Source: Lethocerus indicus (lineage: Eukaryota > Arthropoda > Insecta > Hemiptera > Belostomatidae). Taken from it: a DNA stretch of 64,000 bases. Location of the stretch: NCBI GenBank assembly GCA_019843655.1, contig JACDQD010000009.1:2106704-2170703 (forward strand), in the 5' to 3' direction. Below the pieces are notes generated by a model. The model was not told the origin of the DNA. It saw only the letters and a program-made list of their open reading frames with translations, and ran no database searches. A program made the position numbers and the translations under genes. Shown piece by piece: positions 19,401 to 52,400 of this stretch (its first letter is position 1; every line of letters begins with the position of its first letter).

Positions 19401-22400
19401 TCTAACATCTAACACAGTGTTTTTCTCTATCCCAGTAGATATATATATATCCCTGTCCTCTTGTACAAAGGCGCCGTCTCCTCACAATATTAAAATATAA
19501 CACCTGTTCAAATAAGCGATTTAAATCGGCTTACCTTTTTTTTAATCCGATTCATATTCGATATCGGAGTTCTGTTTTATGTGTTCTCTGAGTCCTATAC
19601 GACAGACAGGTATCCTGACAGTTGAAAGCGTGGGAACGATTCAATAAAATAAAATACTGATCGTAGATCGGTCGGGCAAGCAAAATGTAGTCCACTGTTG
19701 GAATTAAGACGGATAAGAAATAATCTCTCGTTAGTTTAAAATCCGGCGAATGTCATAATCCTCCAAATTTAGATACAGCAGCAGGCGTCAACTAGAGCAG
19801 TTACTTGGGGCCTATTTGGCATTGAAGGAGGATATAAGCGATTATTGTCTTAAAATGTGTGCTAATTGGGTTTCGATATGTGCTGTCGCTCGTCTAATAT
19901 GTCCAATCGCCGAGGGCAGGGTTTCATTATCAAATACCGTGTCCGAAAAGTGGTACAAACGTGACCTCGTAGCGTTCTGTAGACCTTACTGTTGCTCCAG
20001 TCGATATGTAACACTTTGGTTCGGCGCCCGAAAGTCGAGAAATTTCGTTTATATATCGAAATGTTTTAACAGTTTTTTTTTGTTGTGATTTCGGGTTTTT
20101 GTCGTCACACAATCAGAACAGCGAGCCGGAGCGCTGAGGCTGAGTTATCAGCGTCAGACCAACTCCGGGCCGGGGCCCACACGTTATAATATTATGACTA
20201 AACACTATAATTAGACGACGCTAATAGTCTACAACCGTTTCCCATGCTAAATTAACTAATTTAGACCCGCCGACGACCTAATTTAGACGGTTTGAAACGA
20301 CGAATGGAAACTGAAACAATGCCAGGTCCCCGCAGCTGTCCGATAAGCTCGTACGTACTTTGCCCGCTTCGGTCTTTTGCCAGTCCGGTTTCGGTTGGCA
20401 TTAAAAAAAGCAGCACGTGAGTAAACCAAAGCCTCATACGGAAAGGTCAATAAAGTCTTAAAATAAATATAGGGTCCCTACTTCGCCTATTTTCTAATTG
20501 CCCGCGTTAGAAGAGGTACAACTGTATATACATATATGTATATATAGACATATATATACAAATATGTGTATATATATATATATATATACATATATATACA
20601 TACCGCGTGTTCTATAGAACACGAGAGGACCGCAACAATAAATGTGTAATTGCGGCTAGCATACGAGCAAATCCTTCAAAATTTCGTTTTTCCCAGGAGT
20701 GAATTTCCGTTTACAATTTAATACGGTCACGAAATGCAGTTTTGGAAAAAGCGTACCCCGTGAAATGTACATGCGCCGTTCGCATGTGAACAGGAACGAC
20801 ATATGGCACCACTTGGCGGGGAGGAGTCAAATTGAACCAATAATTAAGCCTACATGTACTGGCGGTACTGTCGCTGGTTCCAGTTAGTTGATGATGTCTG
20901 TTGATTGATTTAATGGGGCAACAATCAACGGGCCAGTGAGATCACCGCGTGCAATTAAACTGTTGAATGAAACACAAAACCGTCGGCACCAACCGACCGT
21001 TTTCACCCCGGACTTTCCGTATTTTCAGTCCCTTTCAACCACGGGATTTGAATTTTCCGGTATTATAACTCTCGTGGCTGGTGAATTTCATTGAGTTATC
21101 AATCAATTATGGTCCGGTTATTGGGCCGAAAAATAGATGGACCGCGTGGGCACTCGACGTAACTTTTACGTCCACTTTTTAGGCAGCGAATTGTGACTGG
21201 TATATGAGACAAAATAACTCGTAGGCATATGAACGAAATTGTCCCAATATGCCCTAGATTTTTAACATTTTTTTTTCTTTATTTGTACAATCAATTATAA
21301 CATAATTATATGTACAAGTGTTGAGTGTATGTTTCTCACTTGAATGGCTTGACGAAAGAAACCATCCAATGACGGCACTTTTCACAATGGATGAAATAAT
21401 TTATGGCTTGGTAAAGCGATTCTACGAGCTAAGAAGATCTCTTCTTAGCCGACGCGGGGGGGGATAATGGATGGGTAAGAGAGGAAAGGGACTGAACGAG
21501 TGGATTGGGATGAGGAGAAAGGCGGGGGTGGAACTTAAAGAACCGGGATTTTGCGACTTCGTCGACTGTCTGTATGTTGAGGTAATTGTGGATTGTCTGG
21601 TTAGAAACATACCAGGGAGCATTAAGGATGGTTCGAAGGACTTTTGACTGAAATCTCTGGATGCGGGCTATGTCGAATGTCTTGGTGGAACCCCATAGCT
21701 CTATACCGTATGTCCATGTCGGTTTCAGTATTGCTTTGTATATTGTTAGTTTGTCGCTTAAGGTCAATTTCGATGTCCGTTTTAGTAATGGCCTTAAGAG
21801 CCCAAATTTTCTGTTTAAGTCGGTTCTTTCGAGTCGGATGTGGGGATTCCACGTGAGAGATTTTTAACATATTCATCTTCAAGTCGTTTTAATACCGGAT
21901 GAAGATTGGTTCACCGATTTTCTGGCTGGAAAAGCAAAACACGTCGTCGGGGTCGGCAGTGCGAGACATGTGTTCAGTTGTGGTACGGACACAAAAAATG
22001 GAGTCGGTGGCATTTAAAAAAGCACGTGTTCCACCACTGTGCTCCTTCTTGAAGGGAACGCTGCCCGTTGCATCCCGAAACCGGTCCCGAGCACAAGACA
22101 GAAAATCGACTCGAATAATCCTCGAATAATTTTTAGATAATAAAAATAGAGGAGTGGACTAGCCGCAAATCATACCGCCAGACCGACACAGGACAAAATA
22201 GGCTTACGAATTACTTTATTCTTCTATGAATATACGCGCTGTATCGTGAACGATACACAAATATTTATTTTTAAATGCATTCCGCCCCACTGTCCTCACT
22301 AAATTTATGGACGTAAGTATTGGGACCAAAAGAGATTTGGATTTTGCACATTGTTAGGTGTTAATAGGGAATTTATCCCTGAGGGGGGGATTTAAATTTA

Positions 22401-35400: not shown

Positions 35401-38400
35401 GCAGACTCCTGTGACTCGTTTATTCAATCCTATAAGCGAAACCAGTTTCTGCTTTACAAATTTATATATTCGGGCATGTCTTACTGTAACAATGCTAACA
35501 GTCTGCTCAACCTTTAGCTGAGTGATGATTATTCCAAACCCTCAAGACCCAATCAAACGAATAACTTAATAAATGTGGGGTACTGCTCTTATCTAACTAA
35601 ACAGTTGTTGTGTTACTTGTAATACGGGAGTAGTTATGAACCTTTATCACGTATATTTTATTATATAATTTATAATATTTAAGAGAGACACAAACAAGTT
35701 CCGTGATATAAAGTAACAAGCAATGTCTTACTTAAACCGATTATCTGAATTGGTGGTAATTTTCTTTTGATTCTTTAATGTTCAAAACACTAGTTATTGT
35801 ATCTATATAGCTCTGTATCCGCATAAGCAACCATTATTGAAGCGTTTATAAATTTTGGTATGTTCCATTAAACACTCAACAAAAGTTGTATATATGTTCT
35901 TTAAGGGGCGCATAACAGCTAAAGCCTAATAGCACCCTAAAAAATAAAATTAAAAAAAAAATGTATGTTATTTAGATTAATGGTAAAATTTTCTTATCCT
36001 TCCTTTGTGTGTACTAATGGAAGGAATTTTATTATCTAATATAAACTAAGTTGGACCAAAATTCTCTCCTAGTCTCTTCTGTTATCTGGACTGAGTGTTT
36101 TTCATTTTTGTCTGCAGATGCCGAGGTCCTTCGCCTTACGGTAGGCAGCAAGAGCACGAAATGCAACAACAGCAACAGGGATGGTTTCAAAATGAGGGAT
36201 TTTCATCTTCGGCCGGAGGTGGTGCCGGTGGCAACGCCCAGCCACAGGATACCTCCACGTTCCCGCCCATACCCAACAGCCAACAGGCAGTTTATCAGTC
36301 AGAGGTACAGTCTAATTGAAAATTTTAACAATTCACTGTGTTTTTCACGCCGAACCACGGCACGGTTAGATATTCCACTGTATAGAAAAATATCGCTTAT
36401 ATTTGCAATCTTCAGAGCATTGAAAATTGGAACTAAAAATGTACCGGGTGCACTTATAAAATACGGGATGGAAACCAACACCCCCTCCCCACCTTATCTT
36501 TGGTCTTTGCTTCAACAAACCGTTTGTGGGTTAAATCGTTTGGTGTAATTTCTTTTCATTTGCAATTTTTTAATGGATCACCCTCCGTTGGAAATACCCG
36601 ATCCCCTTATTATTTTCAATACTTTTTCATTTAGATTTTCCAATGCATAACAGATCATAGGAGACCTAATTGCGCTATAAAAAGAAATGAAAACAAACAT
36701 TTTGCTATAATTTTTCTCATTAATTGCTGGACAGGAGGTACCAAACTTTACCAAAGATTCGAAGAAAATTATATTCCTTCAAAATTCATAGAAAAATTTA
36801 TGCTTGCGTACATTCTGTTAGCTCAAATCATAGCTTTTTGATTTTAGCGTAATTCTAGCGAAGCGGAATTTACAATCCATCCAGTTAATTAAAAGTCAAT
36901 ATATTTTTTTTTTTTAAATAATCTGTCTCATTCCTTCCCGATAGGGTGGCTATGATCCAAACTATGAAAATCGAGGATTCTGTAACAACTATCAACAATT
37001 CGGAGGCTATGAGGCCACCAGTAACAGTTATTATCAATCAGTCGCTCAGAATTTCCCAACAAATGCACCACCGCCTGCACAAGTAAGTTTCTGTTGAACG
37101 TTATAACTTAATATTTCTTGAACTTGGTTTTCCAATCGATGATGTATTTATTTTTTTTTCAAACGGTCATCACTTGTATTTTCTTTCATAAATTCGTTGC
37201 GCATTTTAATTTATGTTTTTATTTTCGAACGATATCTACTGAAATTGTTACATGAGACTGTATAACATGGCCATTGCAGTCACAGCATTAACTTATTGTT
37301 ATTGTTTTTTTGCGGTGTACTATGTGGGATATTTTGAGTCTGTTACTGTGCAGTTCTCAAATTTTAATTATGATACAAGTCACTGTCGTTATCAGTTCGG
37401 ATTTAAAAAGAAATGCTGCTTTTATTAGGAATCTTCGATTGTAATATTTTCCACGCATATATTAATGATTTATCAAAGTCATTGCAGTTATCGCTGCACC
37501 TTTATCAAAATGCATAATTTCATTGTCATTGCGTTTAATCTGAAACAATTAGATTGGTTTAAATTGATTGGAATAGATAAGGTGATTTCTCTTTAGATAA
37601 GAGGATTAGATTGGTTTAAATTGATTGGAATAGATAAGGTGATTTCTCTTTAGATAAGGGAGATTTATTGTTTGTAACACTTCTCCAAAATTAATATTTG
37701 ATCTATTAAGCTTTGATTTGGGAAAAAAATTAAGTTTCAAACATGTGTTGTTCAATCTCAAAAAATGTATTATAACTTTTTGTTTTATATAATGGGATAA
37801 TATTTTTATTTTTTAACCTTCTGAAGATTTTCAAGGTTGCAAAGTGCTTTATGTTAAAAACTTTTCTGATTGAAAACAATTCAAATTTTTTAAAAATGTT
37901 ATTCTTTTTAATACGGTCAGCATTTTATAGGCATTTATTTTTTTTAAACTAGTATAATGTATCCCACATCTCTATTTATCTATACTTCCCCCACTTGTAT
38001 ACCATAAATATTCCTGTTTATTAAAAATCTTGCATTTAGTTGAAATTAGTAAGTTATTTCGAGATTATTTCGCAGTACAGTATTTTCAGTGTAGTTTATT
38101 TGTTCGTGACATTATTCATTAATGTGTTTGTTCGCTTATTACTGTAACTTAATTCTGTTTATTATTTTACTATTTTAATTTGGTGGGCCATAATAAATTT
38201 GAGTGTGTCAACATATTAGCTGCTACATGTTCTTGTGTATACAGATGTATTTATTTGGAGTTTACGTGCATTTATTTAAGATTCAAAGTTAAGAGTATTC
38301 TCTTTTTTTTCACAAAATATTTTAATATACATAAGGTGCTACAACATTGTATTACGAATCTCTATCAAATTCAATAAGTGTTCACTTATATTCATCCATC

Positions 38401-44400: not shown

Positions 44401-46879
44401 TTCATATATTTTATTACATAATATATATAATAAAATCCATAATTTTTAATGAGATTAGAAGGTTGTTTCTAAAAATTGAATTTAACCTCATTCCCTACAG
44501 CATTAAATACTATTCAGTATCGATACTGAAATTAAATTAATAAATTCATCGATAAATGATGACAGGATACATTTTTAACACTTTCAAAAATATTTCGATG
44601 CCAATAAATTATAAACAATCGTTTTTTGCAGGAATTTACTGCACAAAACCCGCATTGGGAAGTTGATTGGTTATCTGAGCGTACCAGATCATTCGAGCGT
44701 AGTTCAAGTAAATCTAGGTTGACAAAGGAGGAGTCGAAAAATGAACGTATGTACTCACCTTCACCTACAGATTCTCAGGGCTCACCCAATTCAGTGAGTA
44801 TAACTTCAGCTCAGCGATCAGCTTTTGGCCATGTTGGCTGCCAACAATAAGGCCGTGAAGCGCGAAGATTTTAGAAAATTGAAGCAGGTAAAATCGAGCA
44901 GCAGCTCTTCCAGCGACAGCTCCAGTTCGAGTGATTCGAGCGACGAGAAAAGTTCAAAGAAGTCGAGGAAAAAGAAGAAGAAGAAGAGCAAAAAGCGAGC
45001 GCGGAAAGAGGACGAGGAAAGGATTCTAGAAATTAGGAAAGAACTGTCATTGGATGTCGAGAGGCCGCCTCCTCCTCTCCAACTTCTGCCGCCGAACAGA
45101 GAGCACGAATTTTACGAACCGGAGTTCGATATCCCGGTGAAAATCATGCAACAGGTTACCAAAAAACCGGAGACAGAGACTCGTAAGCTGGACGAAGACA
45201 AGATTATACGCGAGTGGATGGCTCCTCCGGAGCAGGGTGACAGGGAAATGAGCAGTCTCAAGGGAAGATTGAAGCAGAAGCACGACACCGAACAGATAAG
45301 GAAGCGCGAAGACAGATACAGGGAGGATAAACGCGATAAATACGGGGAAAGGAGACACGACAGGAGCAGGGAATATTCCTCCAAGGAATCGAGGGAATAC
45401 AGAGAGTACAGAGATTATAAGGAATCTAGAGAAAGTAAGCGCAGGGAGGAAAAAGAGAAGAAACAGTCTCCGGAATCAAAAAAATATCACGAAAGAGATA
45501 TCGGCGAGTTCAAATCCGCGGCTTCCTTTCAGGACAAAGAAAAGATGTCCGGTGAGAAACCGCAGGGCAAAATCTGGGCGCCCGGCAAAGACGAAGAGGA
45601 CGACAACGAGACCAACTTTGAAAAGCGCACTTCGGAAAGTGCGGCCAAGAAGAAAGACGTCAGGAAGCCTTTGGTGAACCTGCCCAAAACAAAGCTGCCG
45701 TTCATAGGCCGGATGCCCATCTTGAAGAAGAAGCCCGATCAGAAATCGGATGACCAGCCGATGAAAGACGATAAGAAAGAAGACAAAGAGGACTCCGCGG
45801 AAGAAAAGAAGCCCACTTTTATATGGCCCGACGTACCGAACATTCCGGAGCCGCCGCACACCTCCGAAGACTCCCCGCAGAGAGAAGAGCCCCAGCCCGA
45901 GGAACGCCCTCTCCCAAAGTCGACGCTGATCATCAGCAAGCGGCCGAGGCTCATCGAGCCCGTCCAAGAACAGCCCGCCAAGAAGGACGAGAAACGACCC
46001 ACCGAAGACATAGTCGGCGAACAGGACATGGACATCGAAGAAGAGAACCCGAAGGACGAGCTGCACAAAGATTTCAAGGACGCCCTAGAGCTGTTGTTCC
46101 CGGGGGACACCGTCGAAAAGGATAAAGCGGACGCGGAGGTCGAGAACAGGGAAGAGAAAGAGCCGGCGGCGGCGGAGCGACAGGAGGAGGAGGAACAGAA
46201 GACTCCGGATCAACCGATACCTCCCAGCACTCCGGCCGTGCCCGTCAACAACCACCAGCAGCCTCCGCCGCCCGTCATGCATCCGGGATGGGGCCACAAC
46301 ATGATGCCCAATTATTACGCTGCGGACGGAGGGATGTACAGGGCGGAGCAGGCGAGGGGCTGGGGGGGATACCCGGCGGCGGACTACTCTGGCTACGCGC
46401 CCGATCAGCAGGCGTACATGCAGGGCTACATGCCGTACCCGAACGCACAGCACGGCTACATGATGGACTCCTCGGCGCCCAACATGTACATGCACCCGCC
46501 TCCCGTCTACGACTCTTCGGGGTACGGCGCGCAGGTGCCGGCGCCCCCCGCCGAACAGAACAAGGTCGTCGAGGACGTGCCGCCACCGCCGGGCATCGAA
46601 GACACAGACGACGCCAACGCGGACGACTCGAGCTTCGGCGCGTCGCCGCCGAAAAAGCGCAAGAACCCGATGTCCCAGCGGATGAGACGCCACCTGCAGA
46701 AGAAGAAGAAGAAGGCCCAGAAGCCGGAATCCGCCGACCTGGACGATTCGGAGGTGGGCCTCGAAGAGAACGGAGGGGCCACTCCGACCAACTCCTCCAA
46801 GGACTACCAGATGGAAATGTCGGACCTCGCGATGCTTGGAATTGACGAACAAGACATTACCGCTCAGAGTTTCCGTTGA
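32402..46879 (+). CDS. ZNF318-like nuclear protein with two matrin-type zinc fingers
   Basis: Large nuclear protein, about 1,360 residues. Exons read: 32402-32979, 36118-36304, 36945-37082, 39082-39233, 39993-40061, 40373-40551, 41203-41334, 41634-41849, 42246-42345, 44246-44364, 44632-44793 and about 44810-46879 (TGA at 46877-46879). Order of parts: Arg/Ser/Asp-rich N-terminus; Gln/Tyr/Gly-rich low-complexity exons; a charged coiled coil (40373-40551, 41203-41334); a matrin-type finger C-x2-C-x12-H-x5-H (41766-41834, HWCSECNVF); the linker [15 protein letters not shown] leading into a second finger of identical spacing (44281-44349); poly-Ser and poly-Lys tracts; a charged Lys/Glu region; a Tyr/Pro/Gly-rich stretch; and a basic KKRK / KKKKK tail. 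The paired fingers with the FLIP..YC linker are the ZNF318 signature. In mammals this family acts in nuclear RNA/transcription control; no role is inferred here beyond that. Two joins are unresolved: 39233 to 39993 (phase conflict) and 44793 to about 44810 (frame change without a normal intron). Confidence 0.8.
32980..36117 (+). other. Intron 1 of the ZNF318-like gene
   Basis: Donor GTAATC at 32980, acceptor TCTGCAG ending at 36117; AG+A restores Arg. AT-rich, about 3.1 kb, with no exon or repeat that I can support. Confidence 0.7.
37083..39081 (+). other. Intron 3 of the ZNF318-like gene
   Basis: Donor GTAAGT at 37083, acceptor TTTTCAG ending at 39081. Holds the 57-bp tandem duplication at 37548-37658; otherwise AT-rich with no supported exon. 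Confidence 0.7.
37548..37658. repeat. Tandem duplication, two 57-bp units
   Basis: Unit one starts ATTAGATTGGTTTAAATTGA at 37548 and unit two starts with the same bases at 37605. They agree through GATTTCTCTTTAGATAAG, with the first differences only at the distal edge (AGG versus GGG). This is a recent local duplication. Confidence 0.9.
42346..44245 (+). other. Intron between the two zinc-finger regions of the ZNF318-like gene
   Basis: Donor GTCAGT at 42346, acceptor TTTTTTAG ending at 44245; G+GC restores Gly. About 1.9 kb of AT-rich sequence. A possible inverted-repeat element at 43296-43580 is reported as a finding. No exon seen. Confidence 0.65.
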
Positions 46880-47845: not shown

Positions 47846-48849
47846 GGAAATTAATTAATGTTTAAAAGGAAAAAAAATGTGTATTTATAAAGAAATTATT
47901 AGCTAATTAAAACAATTTTTTCTTCTATCACTTGTTTGTTTTCTTTCAAGCACCTTATTATCAAGATTGTTTCAAGCAGCAAATTGTTATCGAGAAAAAA
48001 TAAAATTTACAGATTTTATGTTCATCCGTGTAATGAAAATCCATGGATTTCGTTCAAACAATTCTTTGACTGTTATATGTTTATTACAATAATTTGAATC
48101 CAAATATATAAATCCACTTTGACTGGGGAAGTTTAAAACACAATGATTTAAATATGTTCTTTATTCGTTGGTTTTACAATTACTATGGAATACCAATTGT
48201 GCTATACAAAATGAGATTAATAATAATAATACTCTAGATTAAATTCTGATTTAATATAGATTACATACAATGGTTAGTTTTAGATTTACAGAGAATCTGG
48301 AATTTTATATCTGCAAAAATATAGCTAAATAATTTATTTGGTAAATAAGCACTACATTTTGAATTAGTACGCTATGATTAAATACTTTATTCACTGGGTA
48401 AAGTTTCCACAGAACTTTAACCAGAGTTCAGCCTTTTTAAAATTCAAGTTTTGGTTGTATACATTTTGAAAAAATATTGCACAGCCAAAGACCAAATGGA
48501 AAAACAATGACTATCACTTACCATTTCATGAGTACGTACAAAATACAAGGTTAAATATCTGGAACAATTTCAGTTCAAACCCATGAGTAATTCTGAAAAA
48601 AAGAAAAGAAGCTTTAAGCCATAATACAATTGAATGCACAATTAAATATATGCTAACTTAGTTATATATTTAACTTTAAAGAACATTTAGTTGTATTTGA
48701 AAATTAATCAGAAGCTTTGTGTGTGGGCTACCGATTTATTAACTTACGAGAAATAATGAGCGCGCGAATTATTTATTATACGTTAAGGTTTAAAAAGAGA
48801 GGTTTTAGGTAGGGAAATTTCCGCGTATTGGCATCACTGTGCGGAGAGC

Positions 48850-49437
48850 CCTAATAGTTTCAAAAATTGCCGCTAGGGGGCGGCACTGCACGGGAAGTAA
48901 CAATACGGGCGCTAGTAGTTCCAGAAATAACCACCAGGGGGCAGTAGTGCACGGGAAGTATCGACACTGGCGCTAGTAGTTCCAGAAATCGCCACCAGGG
49001 GGCGGCACTGCACGGGAAGTATCGACACTGGCGCTAGTAGTTCCAGAAATCGCCACCAGGGGGCAGTAGTGCACGGGAAGTATCGACACTGGCGCTAGTA
49101 GTTCCAGAAATCGCCACCAGGGGGCAGTAGCGCACGGGAAGTATCGACACTGGCGCTAGTAGTTCCAGAAATCGCCACCAGGGGGCAGTAGTGCACGGGA
49201 AGTATCGACACTGGCGCTAGTAGTTCCAGAAATCGCCACCAGGGGGCAGTAGTGCACGGGAAGTATCGACACTGGCGCTAGTAGTTCCAGAAATCGCCAC
49301 CAGGGGGCAGTAGTGCACGGGAAGTATCGACACTGGCGCTAGTAGTTCCAGAAATCGCCACCAGGGGGCGGTACTGTACGGGAAGTGTCGACACTGGCGC
49401 TAATAGTTTCAAAAATCGCCACCAGAGGGCGGGACCC
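48850..49437. repeat. 61-bp minisatellite, ten units, each with a CTCF-type consensus site
   Basis: Ten units in strict 61-bp register. Each contains a block starting at 48870, 48931, 48992, 49053, 49114, 49175, 49236, 49297, 49358 and 49419. The common block is CCACCAGGGGGCAGT, or the variants CCACCAGGGGGCGGC and CCACCAGGGGGCGGT. Compared with the classical vertebrate CTCF consensus CCASYAGRKGGCRSY, the eight internal units match at all 15 positions and the two edge units at 14. The rest of the unit (GGCGCTAGTAGTTCCAGAAA before the site, GCACGGGAAGTATCGACACT after it) is also conserved. There are no length changes between units. A minus-strand open frame across the right end is a by-product of the repeat. 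Confidence 0.95.
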
Positions 49438-52400
49438 GTACCAAATTCAAACCGAGCGACCTCCTTGCATCTCATGTTCTCCTGATACAAATCCTGATAC
49501 TTTTCCCGACCCAAATTGAAAATTTTAAAATATCAATATTTACCCAGATTTTTCGTTAATTTGATAATAAATGAAACTGTTAAGGCTTCTAATGCATAAA
49601 TTAGAAGGGGAAATTAATTTTTTTTAATTAATGATTAATTTATTTGATTGCAAATTTTACGCCCAAACATTTTCCGTGCAGTGCAGCCATCTGGCGGCGA
49701 TTTTACGAATTAAATACACGAATTGGCAAATATTTTTTATTCATAAAAAAAATACCCGACCGGTCACGAGATTCGTGCACGCTGAAAATTTACACAGAAA
49801 TACACACAAACGCCATCTGACAAATATATAGATACATTGACTTATCAACAGATTCGATCATAAAATCTAAATTTAAGCGAGAGCAGGTCCTAAAATTTTC
49901 GTTGCAGATTCATGCAGAATACACAGTTTCTCACGCAAAAATTTATTTAAGCGAAAAATGTTTCTCAGCGTGGCAATAAAAACAAATTAAAAAAGCAACA
50001 TTAAATACAACTGCAGATAACATTGACAGAGCTAAATTTGTACTGTTTGTATTTTGTAAGTTTGTAAAAATAATGCAAGGGTAGGCAATATCTGGAGTTA
50101 ATGCTAATAGCGAGTAAATTACATTAATTTTATTTTGAAAATTTGTAATAAGACATACAGTACTTTTCATTAATTGTCTTTACACAAAGTACCTATAACG
50201 TACTGATCTATTTTAAAGTTTGAAGACTGTGCTTAACTATTTCTAGCATGCCGCTGGTATTTCAATTTCATTTTCAGTTTTATGTTTACAATGAAAGTTT
50301 ATAATTATATTCTGCATACAGAAGAGGGTAGTCTGCATTTTTTCTTAACAAGCTCTATAATGAGGTTCAAACTTTCCTTCTATACTTAAATATCGTAAAT
50401 ATATTTTATGTATGTAAAGAAGAAATAAAACCAGCAAATCGTATCCTTGATATTTTGTTAAACTTTAAATATTTACGCTTGAATTTTGCAATATTTTGTG
50501 CACTTAAACTTCATATACCTGTAGTTTAATTAGTTCTTTGGGAACCACTGTCCTCTCACAATCAACTGAAATGTCAGATTGATTACAAATGGAATTTAAT
50601 TAATTTCATATTATATTTTCTGCATCATTGGTTGCGCAAAATTTGACACTTTCAAAATCGATTTAAACATTTGAGAAAGTGCTGAATCTAATGAAATGAC
50701 TCTAATTTTTTGATAAGTTAGTCTTACACACATTCTCCCTAGGAATAAGGTTAATAAACTACAGAATAGGGGATAACACAAATGAGTTACTACATTAAAT
50801 AGAACCATCTGTAAATAATTTATTTAATTTATATTTCGCATTTTATACAGATAAAATTCCAATAATTTAAAATCGATACAAAAATATAATAGCACTACTT
50901 TGTCAATAATAAATTTAATAAATACTCAAAAGGCGAAGCCGTTACACTATATAAGATATAGTTCAAAGTAAGCTGAAATTAAAATAAACTTTGTGCAAAA
51001 AGGCACTCGCATTTCTCAGTCTCCCAATTTAAATGTTTCAGTTAAAATATTCGCTAGTTTAACACAAACCGAAACCTACATTTAAGAATAAATTAAAGGC
51101 TATACACTATTAGCGTCATTATATAAAAATAAATAGATATAAAAGTTACTGTAACATAGACAGTACCACTGACAAACTTGAAAGTGTTCCAAAATTAAAT
51201 TTTCAACAAGTCCTTTTAAATACTTGAGGATTGTCTGCCGGAACTTCGTATCAGAATTAAAATAGAGAACTTTTTGTCCATTTAAAAGTTCTATGCCTAA
51301 GCAAAATACGTAGGCAATTATTCCAACGCTCAATACGGACTTGAGTATTGAAACTTGTAAAAATGATATGTTCACACTTTAAAATATCTACACGCCTACA
51401 AGGAACGGATACTAAGGATTGAACAGTACTTAGGATTAGTTAAGATAAAAATACACTTTAAAGGCAAAAACAGTGAATACAAGTTTGAAAAAACCCTGCG
51501 TGGATACACAGTTTTATAATAAAATATTTGCATCTTGTTACAATATAAACTATTTATTTTAAGGCCTCACGTGTGTCCACGTACAGAATGATTTATACTA
51601 CTACAACCTAAACTTCTATTCGAAATATTAAAATATATTTGGTTCTTCACAACCGAATTCATTAGAATTGAATTGAACTCATATTTGAATATAACAATTC
51701 CGTTTTAAATTTTTCAATCGAAGGAGAGGCTTGTCAGCGCGATGGATTTAAATCTGAGATAAATAATGTTAACACGTGAACACTCTTTACCGCCAACAAG
51801 CTTTTCCTTCCGCTGCAATTTTAAATTGCAAAATTCGTTTGGAACTCTTTCACTGTTGATTTGAGACTAGAAAATAATTTGCGTCCATTAAATGGAAAGA
51901 TTAATACATCTTTGTGCACAGAGACATATATTTGTGTTAACTCCCTTCAAGTATTTTCCACTCGCTGCTTTATCACCAAACAAGAAATTGAATTGCTATC
52001 TGGCAGTGAATATAATAAATCTTAAAAAATATATATATACATCGGCCATACAAGATATTTGTATATAAATCAAAATAGTACGATGACAGCACTTTTCATA
52101 ATATATTATCAACAGACTCTGGTTTATTTATTTCTGTTTATAACCAATCGCTTTAACGGAAAGAAACCAAATAAGTCTGAAAATGTAGAAGATCAAATTC
52201 AACAGTAAAGGTGAATACTGTTGTATTAAAATTTAAGAGCTTATTTTTTGAGACAATATTTCAAAATAACTTAAAATATCTTTGCAAAAAGAAGCAACAC
52301 AAAACTAACATGACTAATAAACTGGATGTTTTATATTTTGGTTCATTTTTTAAATTATTCTTTTTGAATTTAGTTTCTTTTTCAAATAGAAGAGACAATT

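Follow-up and report, generated by a model that had tools for sequence, protein, structure and literature searches.

The window analysed here, the whole 64-kb stretch of Lethocerus indicus DNA, holds a tandem array of CTCF-type sites between two convergent genes, which an earlier note made from the sequence had labelled ZNF318-like and FAM177. The second label was borne out, the minus-strand gene matching Pfam PF14774 (E 3.6e-8 and 7.3e-21), whereas the first was not, as Pfam gives only a sub-threshold SR-25 match for the plus-strand frame at 44804-46879. Two other frames of the window, 21429-21863 on the minus strand and 1013-1330 on the plus strand, had no Pfam match; by eye, the former resembles a fragment of a non-LTR reverse transcriptase and the latter a fragment of a mariner-type transposase. 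The window also carries a perfect tandem duplication at 37548-37658 (57-bp unit, 1.9 copies, 100% by Tandem Repeats Finder).

Tandem Repeats Finder places the array at 48851-49430 on the plus strand, with a period of 61 bp, 9.5 copies and 93% matches. A direct scan of the window revealed ten cores, all on the plus strand and at a constant step of 61 bp from 48870 to 49419, eight of which fit CCASYAGRKGGCRSY exactly while the first (CCGCTAGGGGGCGGC) and last (CCACCAGAGGGCGGG) each deviate by one mismatch, confirming the earlier description of ten co-oriented sites. The core of unit 4, CCACCAGGGGGCAGT, lies at 49053-49067 and the remaining nine start at 48870, 48931, 48992, 49114, 49175, 49236, 49297, 49358 and 49419; the rest of the 64 kb has no further place for CCASYAGRKGGCRSY at zero or one mismatch and two at two mismatches (17816 on the plus strand and 49683 on the minus strand). 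An upstream module, located 9 bp before the core in unit 4 (49039-49043, plus strand), reads AGTTC in eight of the ten units and AGTTT in the first and last. Units 4, 6, 7 and 8 are identical, while the first unit is 79% and the (partial) last unit 87% like unit 6, as expected of an array that recently grew from its middle. The spacing had been described as about six helical turns. Placement on the same face is a reading that we reject: at 10.5 bp per turn, 61 bp make 5.81 turns, so that neighbouring sites do not share a common helical face.

To compare the units with known CTCF motifs, we used the vertebrate matrix JASPAR MA0139.1 with the counts that we assume for it (maximum 30.9 bits). On this matrix the ten window cores score 24.3-28.6 bits, and the next best place in the window (49682, minus strand) 17.4 bits; the unit scores 26.9 bits, a value that none of 5000 dinucleotide shuffles reached (top shuffle 19.4). 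Of the scorings that the earlier note had proposed, the vertebrate one came out in its favour, and by this matrix the letters of the window units mark them as CTCF-type far beyond chance. The fit to the fly motif, which the note had also drawn on, is weak. On the fly matrix in the form assumed here, the commonest window unit (CCACCAGGGGGCAGT, six of the ten) scores 2.97 of 25.1 bits and the other four (GCGG) 11.4-15.5; the commonest units rank 149-154 within the window, and five other window places score 16.1-19.2 against 15.5 for the best unit. The value of 2.97 bits arises because this assumed matrix hardly tolerates A or G at positions 13 and 14. Read on its reverse strand, the commonest unit scores 15.1 bits, and the window cores lack the form AGRTGGCGC that the same matrix takes as fly-type. 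We take the core of the chicken 5'HS4 FII site to be CCGCTAGGGGGCAGC, of the same GGGGGCAGC kind as in the window, and this core is also low on the same fly matrix (4.83). A low fly score need therefore not be fatal, as CTCF of Anopheles in cell lysate is nonetheless reported to bind chicken 5'HS4 FII, with a partial antiserum supershift (PMC1174870).

A search of the genome (427 Mb, 209 contigs) revealed that the 61-bp unit is dispersed and the array not a local design. There are 845 exact matches to CCASYAGRKGGCRSY, compared to 29 for the reversed pattern, and among the first 100 places listed 86 fall into 11 multi-site clusters, seven of which carry both strands, with 61 bp as the commonest same-strand spacing (42 pairs). 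Five of the 14 single places among these 100 were inspected by eye: L001 looks like an element block, whereas L002, L005, L006 and L007 do not. The 43-bp stretch between cores has 295 genome matches at up to three mismatches (control, 0), of which the first 100 were listed, and the segment 49431-49740 at least 50, including the window itself, on nine contigs; the others are 82-93% identical to the window, with 40 of 300 candidates scored and some matches being two halves of one element. One of the nine contigs, C133, duplicates C3 where checked, so that genome-wide copy counts may be somewhat inflated. The two are identical over 19,501 bp (L064 and L065 versus L066 and L067), which marks C133 as a duplicated contig in the assembly; we had considered it as a sign of copy-number polymorphism and rejected this, since identity over such a length says nothing on alleles.

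Seventeen of the CCASYAGRKGGCRSY places were fetched and read in part, and several are pairs of inverted arms around an interior. The arms match each other over 219 bp at 91% in L012, while L014 has two such matches of 102 bp each, one at 99% and one at 96%; in L012, L013, L014 and L015 the interior between the arms matches the right flank of the window array over long stretches. The many dispersed copies and the inverted arms around an interior fit a foldback or terminal-inverted-repeat element. The copy in the window spans about 48785 to about 49741 on the plus strand (C9:2155488-2156444 in the genome) and consists of a left end, an expanded left arm, the interior and a short right arm; the feature is therefore larger than the earlier note gave. 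Coverage by at least three other element loci runs from 48785 to 49737, as read on L026, which is the window place re-fetched, and the ends were also compared by BLAST. The left end (48785-48850, plus strand) has one outer type A block with a degenerate core, CCGCGTATTGGCATC, at about 48821, and matches L025 at 92% and L017 and L012 at 84-85%. The interior (49431-49663, plus strand), starting with CCAAATTCAAACCGAGCGACCTCC and covered by the 49431-49740 query, lacks by eye about 370 bp that the fuller copy L033 has. The right arm (49664-49741, minus strand) is one degenerate block, with the core CCGCCAGATGGCTGC at 49683-49697 and AATTC 9 bp before it, and matches L018 at 86%, L022 at 80% and, over a longer stretch, L017 at 74%. 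With its right arm reduced to this one worn block, the window copy has effectively one orientation of sites. A degenerate 3' tail that by eye is retroelement-like (49770-49845, plus strand) adjoins the element, with matches in L022 (2430-2478) and at the end of L017. Comparable tails are found close to several further copies, and such neighbouring retroelement-like pieces blur the outer edges of the element. No clear target-site duplication was seen by eye at the ends of the 23 loci printed.

Since the array belongs to a single copy of an element that is dispersed, its intergenic place is explained by insertion. The idea of a boundary made for this gene pair is accordingly not supported, and we rejected a purpose-built insulator at the window locus on the ground that element copies are dispersed through the genome. 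The array could instead be a boundary element maintained at this place, for which its position between the plus-strand 44804-46879 frame and the minus-strand FAM177 gene could be cited, as could its ten strong sites in one orientation. We hold this to be very unlikely, because the same element and its arrays occur at many places on many contigs and because a single arm growing in tandem accounts for all sites pointing the same way. Insulation of the flanking genes, or a barrier effect on them, would be an unproven proposal. The locus is thus less special than thought, and the finding is more interesting genome-wide.

The copies and their relatives vary in form. The largest cluster among the first 100 CCASYAGRKGGCRSY places listed, L017 1729-6851 (G000:C1:12986728-12991850), extends over about 5 kb, in which scrambled 61-bp units carry 35 exact matches to the motif, all on one strand. 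In L010 (1947-2620) the two arms differ, with 62-bp units on the plus strand (mostly CCACCAGGGGGCAGC) and 57-bp units on the minus strand (mostly CCACCAGGTGGCAGC), both unit types keeping GTTCC upstream. Beside an element copy, L023 (1443-1990) carries a minisatellite with a different GCGCCCCCTCAGGGTGGTG core (70-bp unit, 7.8 copies, 98% matches). On the same contig as the window and 0.95 Mb away, G000:C9:3103905-3124090 is a macrosatellite in which eight arrays of 61-bp units recur every 2.7-2.95 kb, all listed sites lying on the plus strand. Its cores, read in L068 (C9:3103300-3110100), are CCACCAGAGGGCTGC (one mismatch), with 11, 9 and at least 11 per array where read; neighbouring kilobase units are about 97-98% alike where read, and by eye the unit also holds a look-alike of a coding exon fragment.

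To determine if the core is conserved beyond the rest of the unit, we compared blocks across loci. In blocks picked by their core match, conservation reaches from about -18 to about +26 relative to the core and drops in the spacer, the core itself being biased by this choice. Blocks were also chosen by their flanks alone. In 46 diverged type B blocks chosen in this way the core holds 1.19 bits per column compared to 0.45 and 0.14 in the spacers, and with one block per locus (35) it holds 1.66 compared to 1.12 and 0.69, a smaller contrast; the corresponding values for type A are 0.73 versus 0.13 and 0.24 (30 blocks) and 0.90 versus 0.18 and 0.33 (19 blocks, one per locus), the spacer values being partly lowered by differences in unit length. 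Among the diverged type B blocks 19 of 46 fit the consensus exactly and 32 of 46 within one mismatch, and position K is G in 37, T in 9 and never A or C. G to A is usually the commonest change. In the outer type A blocks the core is less strictly preserved (2 of 30 exact; K is G in 16, T in 10, A in 2 and C in 2). The earlier note had named as contrary evidence a dispersed satellite whose core is no better conserved than its unit; the unit is dispersed, but the core stands out from it. These data also bear on the proposal that the array is a passive minisatellite inside a repeat, that no protein reads it and that the motif match is accidental. The identity of units 4, 6, 7 and 8 lends this some weight, as their high scores then count as one event and not many, but the modules are conserved between diverged families that differ in unit length and in spacers, and we regard a passive minisatellite as highly improbable.

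The second of these families emerged from the GGCGC form of the motif, CCASYAGRKGGCGCY, which has 31 genome places compared to 6 for the control; 27 of the 31 were read and 25 are distinct. AGTTC lies exactly nine bases before the core, like in the window unit, at six of these 25 places and is lacking at 19, and a scan for upstream matches at the 25 places peaked at 5 bp (mean 3.40), hardly above the value at 0 bp (3.20). The six places with AGTTC, together with one with AATTC, make up L096-L102, which have further sites around them, several in arrays, and cores that are mostly CCACTAGATGGCGCT or CCGCTAGATGGCGCG. L097 has interior letters in common with the window's family, so that the two families are related and their copies not independent, and the second-family cores were found with the consensus itself. 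In a column table of the blocks with AGTTC at -14 (43 of 171 family-1 and 18 of 30 family-2 representatives), the spacer consensus differs between the families at all of the columns -9 to -4 and agrees at -3 to -1. Within the core, differences are confined to columns Y, R, K, R, S and Y, all of them degenerate positions of the CTCF consensus, an outcome that picking cores at up to three mismatches favours. Blocks with AGTTC at -14 account for 18 of 27 in family 2 without L098, which is the same repeat as L097, and L100, which holds both families, and for 29 of 41 with them.

The distance between the two modules is, in our analysis, unaffected by how the cores were picked. In L096, L097, L099, L101 and L102 all 18 cores (up to three mismatches) that follow AGTTC by 4-15 bp sit at a gap of 9, as does every such core in L098 and L100, which are outside these totals, whereas background AGTTCs had such a core at a gap of 4-15 in 0 of 88 and 0 of 91 cases. 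For the window's family, 402 AGTTCs in 32 loci (without L001, L017, L066 and L067) gave gaps of 9 in 178 cases, 12 in 15, 10 in 11, 13 in 4 and 8 in 2. A distance of 10 instead of 9 bp was seen in 10 of 171 representatives, compared to 43 at 9, and in 5 of 154 seeds from 36 loci; this seed count omitted L002-L008, L024, L036-L041, L043-L045, L048 and L051-L053 as non-element, overlapping or duplicate, as well as the zinc-finger loci L056-L063 and the duplicates L064-L065. Genome-wide, AGTTC-N9-CCRSYAGRTGGCG has 279 matches and its reversed control none. The first 100 listed fall into 31 clusters. Twenty of these are multi-site and comprise 89 sites, and 14 of the 20 carry both strands; the steps between sites include 40, 63, about 76 and 114-116 bp, and the 38 spacers printed include 26 different ones. 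The gap counts in the loci and the reversed control are what speaks for a specific spacing. Further two-part clusters, in which sites are 63, about 76 or 116 bp apart, lie at G000:C1:8473767-8474414, C3:31447334-31447861, C4:11439408-11440008 and C2:29107832-29108580. The strand order of two-strand clusters was minus then plus in 11 of the 14 for AGTTC-N9 (first 100 of 279 listed) and plus then minus in all seven for CCASYAGRKGGCRSY (first 100 of 845 listed).

What persists across the families is thus, in its letters, a two-part site of AGTTC, nine free bases and the core, and the conservation of these modules fits a CTCF-type site of two parts. In vertebrate CTCF, fingers 3-7 recognise the core, while fingers 9-11 recognise an upstream motif that most often lies 5 bp, and in some sites 6 bp, from the 19-base core (PMC9004084); the best upstream site, TGCAATCCC or TGCAATACCC, is also recognised at a 6-nt spacing (PMC10287918). 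In the window unit, AGTAGTTCC ends 5 bp before the 19-base core and agrees with TGCARTNCC, our shorthand for the vertebrate upstream motif, at only six of eight set positions (chance 0.0055 at one fixed spacing). The vertebrate upstream motif on the reverse strand of the unit was also considered and dropped, the spacing, worked out by hand, being unfit.

The block could alternatively be the site of the element's own or a helper transposase, arm and end repeats raising transposition and the likeness to CTCF sites being incidental. Such a role would suit the outer ends of the element, which are themselves versions of the block, and the inverted arms, which a terminal-repeat transposon needs. We nevertheless consider it rather unlikely, as a two-part site of about 30 bp with CTCF-like free positions (type B position K being only G or T) would be a close coincidence, as the core columns differing between the two families are all degenerate CTCF positions, and as the second-family cores are near the fly CTCF optimum (21.5-21.6 of 25.1 bits on the matrix assumed here).

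The genome encodes CTCF. A query with CTCF fingers gave 172 genome matches, and the locus at C10:13315.7-13319.4 kb was picked by its exons, which are 61-71% identical to the human fingers. The joined fingers have human CTCF as best PDB match (E 4.6e-101, colinear). By eye, finger 3 carries the human recognition helix and later fingers are changed, presumably in a manner resembling Drosophila CTCF. A panarthropod survey reports CTCF in the transcript libraries of 105 species (PMC5094011). The block could instead be read by another zinc-finger protein of the host whose specificity resembles that of CTCF, be it a paralog or a repeat-silencing factor. Multi-finger loci are many, the highest-scoring of the 172 matches being other zinc-finger loci at 32-44% identity; the assumed fly matrix dislikes GGCAGC; and BORIS, a human CTCF paralog, is reported to prefer the tandem-repeat part of SVA elements (PMC5007689). 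With one locus standing out by its 61-71% identical exons and by fingers colinear with human CTCF, we think it doubtful that such a protein is the reader.

The reading that we favour, and judge somewhat probable from the sequence evidence, is a mobile inverted-repeat element with arrays of two-part CTCF-type sites and host CTCF as their candidate reader. A non-autonomous, foldback-like inverted-repeat element would have inserted between the two convergent genes, and its left arm would then have grown to ten units by tandem duplication of one 61-bp unit, through unequal exchange or slippage. Each unit would present an upstream module TAGTTC, a 9-base spacer, the 15-base core and then about 11 conserved bases to the multi-finger host CTCF, the predicted binder, and the units would probably be occupied in part or in full. 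Binding would have preserved the core, the upstream module and the distance between them, whereas the families came to differ in their spacers, unit lengths and interiors. Of this, the dispersal, the inverted arms, the growth of the array, the conservation of the modules and the presence of a CTCF gene are seen in the sequence. With the two-part site taking up about 30 bp of the 61-bp unit, neighbours could bind together, rotated by about 70 degrees; we infer such joint occupancy of the ten sites, like any insulating or barrier effect here. Where the two arms face opposite ways, as they do in many copies, they could halt extruding cohesin arriving from either side, although polar CTCF barriers are, to our knowledge, not established in insects.

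A wider and more tentative reading, possible but not one that we would put first, is that a diverse, old group of inverted-array elements lives off CTCF. Their arms would be made of two-part sites because binding helps the element, the elements would supply much of the insect's CTCF landscape, and the free 9-bp spacer would expose TAGTTC as the upstream half of the site. If so, the help to the element could be open chromatin, pairing of its ends or protection from silencing. If CTCF reads the arrays, the many dense clusters (11 and 20 multi-site ones among the first 100 listed of 845 and 279 matches, respectively) offer material for testing barrier strength against the number and orientation of sites, and the upstream half of the insect CTCF site becomes a concrete prediction. 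Should another protein read them, its specificity would be nearly that of CTCF and equally interesting.

Dispersal of CTCF sites by mobile elements is known from mammals, and the gypsy insulator array from flies; our literature search, largely without subscription papers, found no report of CTCF-type arrays on dispersed inverted-repeat elements in insects. Gypsy is an LTR retrotransposon. Its insulator has 12 Su(Hw) sites in Drosophila (PMC5825117). Gypsy resembles the window element, in the reading favoured here, as an insect mobile element on which sites of a multi-zinc-finger insulator protein are clustered. The protein is another one, and the window element differs by its inverted arms, its two-part CTCF-type sites and its many unit families. 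Rodent B2 and similar retroelements are short and have single sites, whereas the window element carries arrays. They share with it the spread of CTCF-type sites by repeat expansion, and the same source defines a two-part CTCF motif of 33/34 bp with two spacings (PMC3368268). In the human subtelomeric 61-29-37 repeats near TERRA promoters, a 61-bp unit also occurs in a region with CTCF sites, but these sites lie about 300 bp downstream of the 29-bp repeats (PMC6600276). We rejected homology with this 61-bp repeat, the likeness being in unit length only, which we take as coincidence. The DXZ4 macrosatellite likewise consists of tandem units with CTCF-type sites, and its period of about 3 kb (PMC3218863) is close to the 2.7-2.95 kb of the locus at C9:3.10-3.12 Mb; the latter differs in having 9-11 mostly one-mismatch cores per unit where read. 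Finally, the VNTR of hominid SVA elements is reported to bind BORIS in vivo and both BORIS and CTCF in vitro (PMC5007689). SVA is a vertebrate retrotransposon with a GC-rich VNTR; two motif-matching sequences are named in the SVA-D tested there, and no inverted arms are described for it. As in the window element, however, CTCF-family sites are clustered in tandem repeats that lie within a mobile element (PMC5007689).
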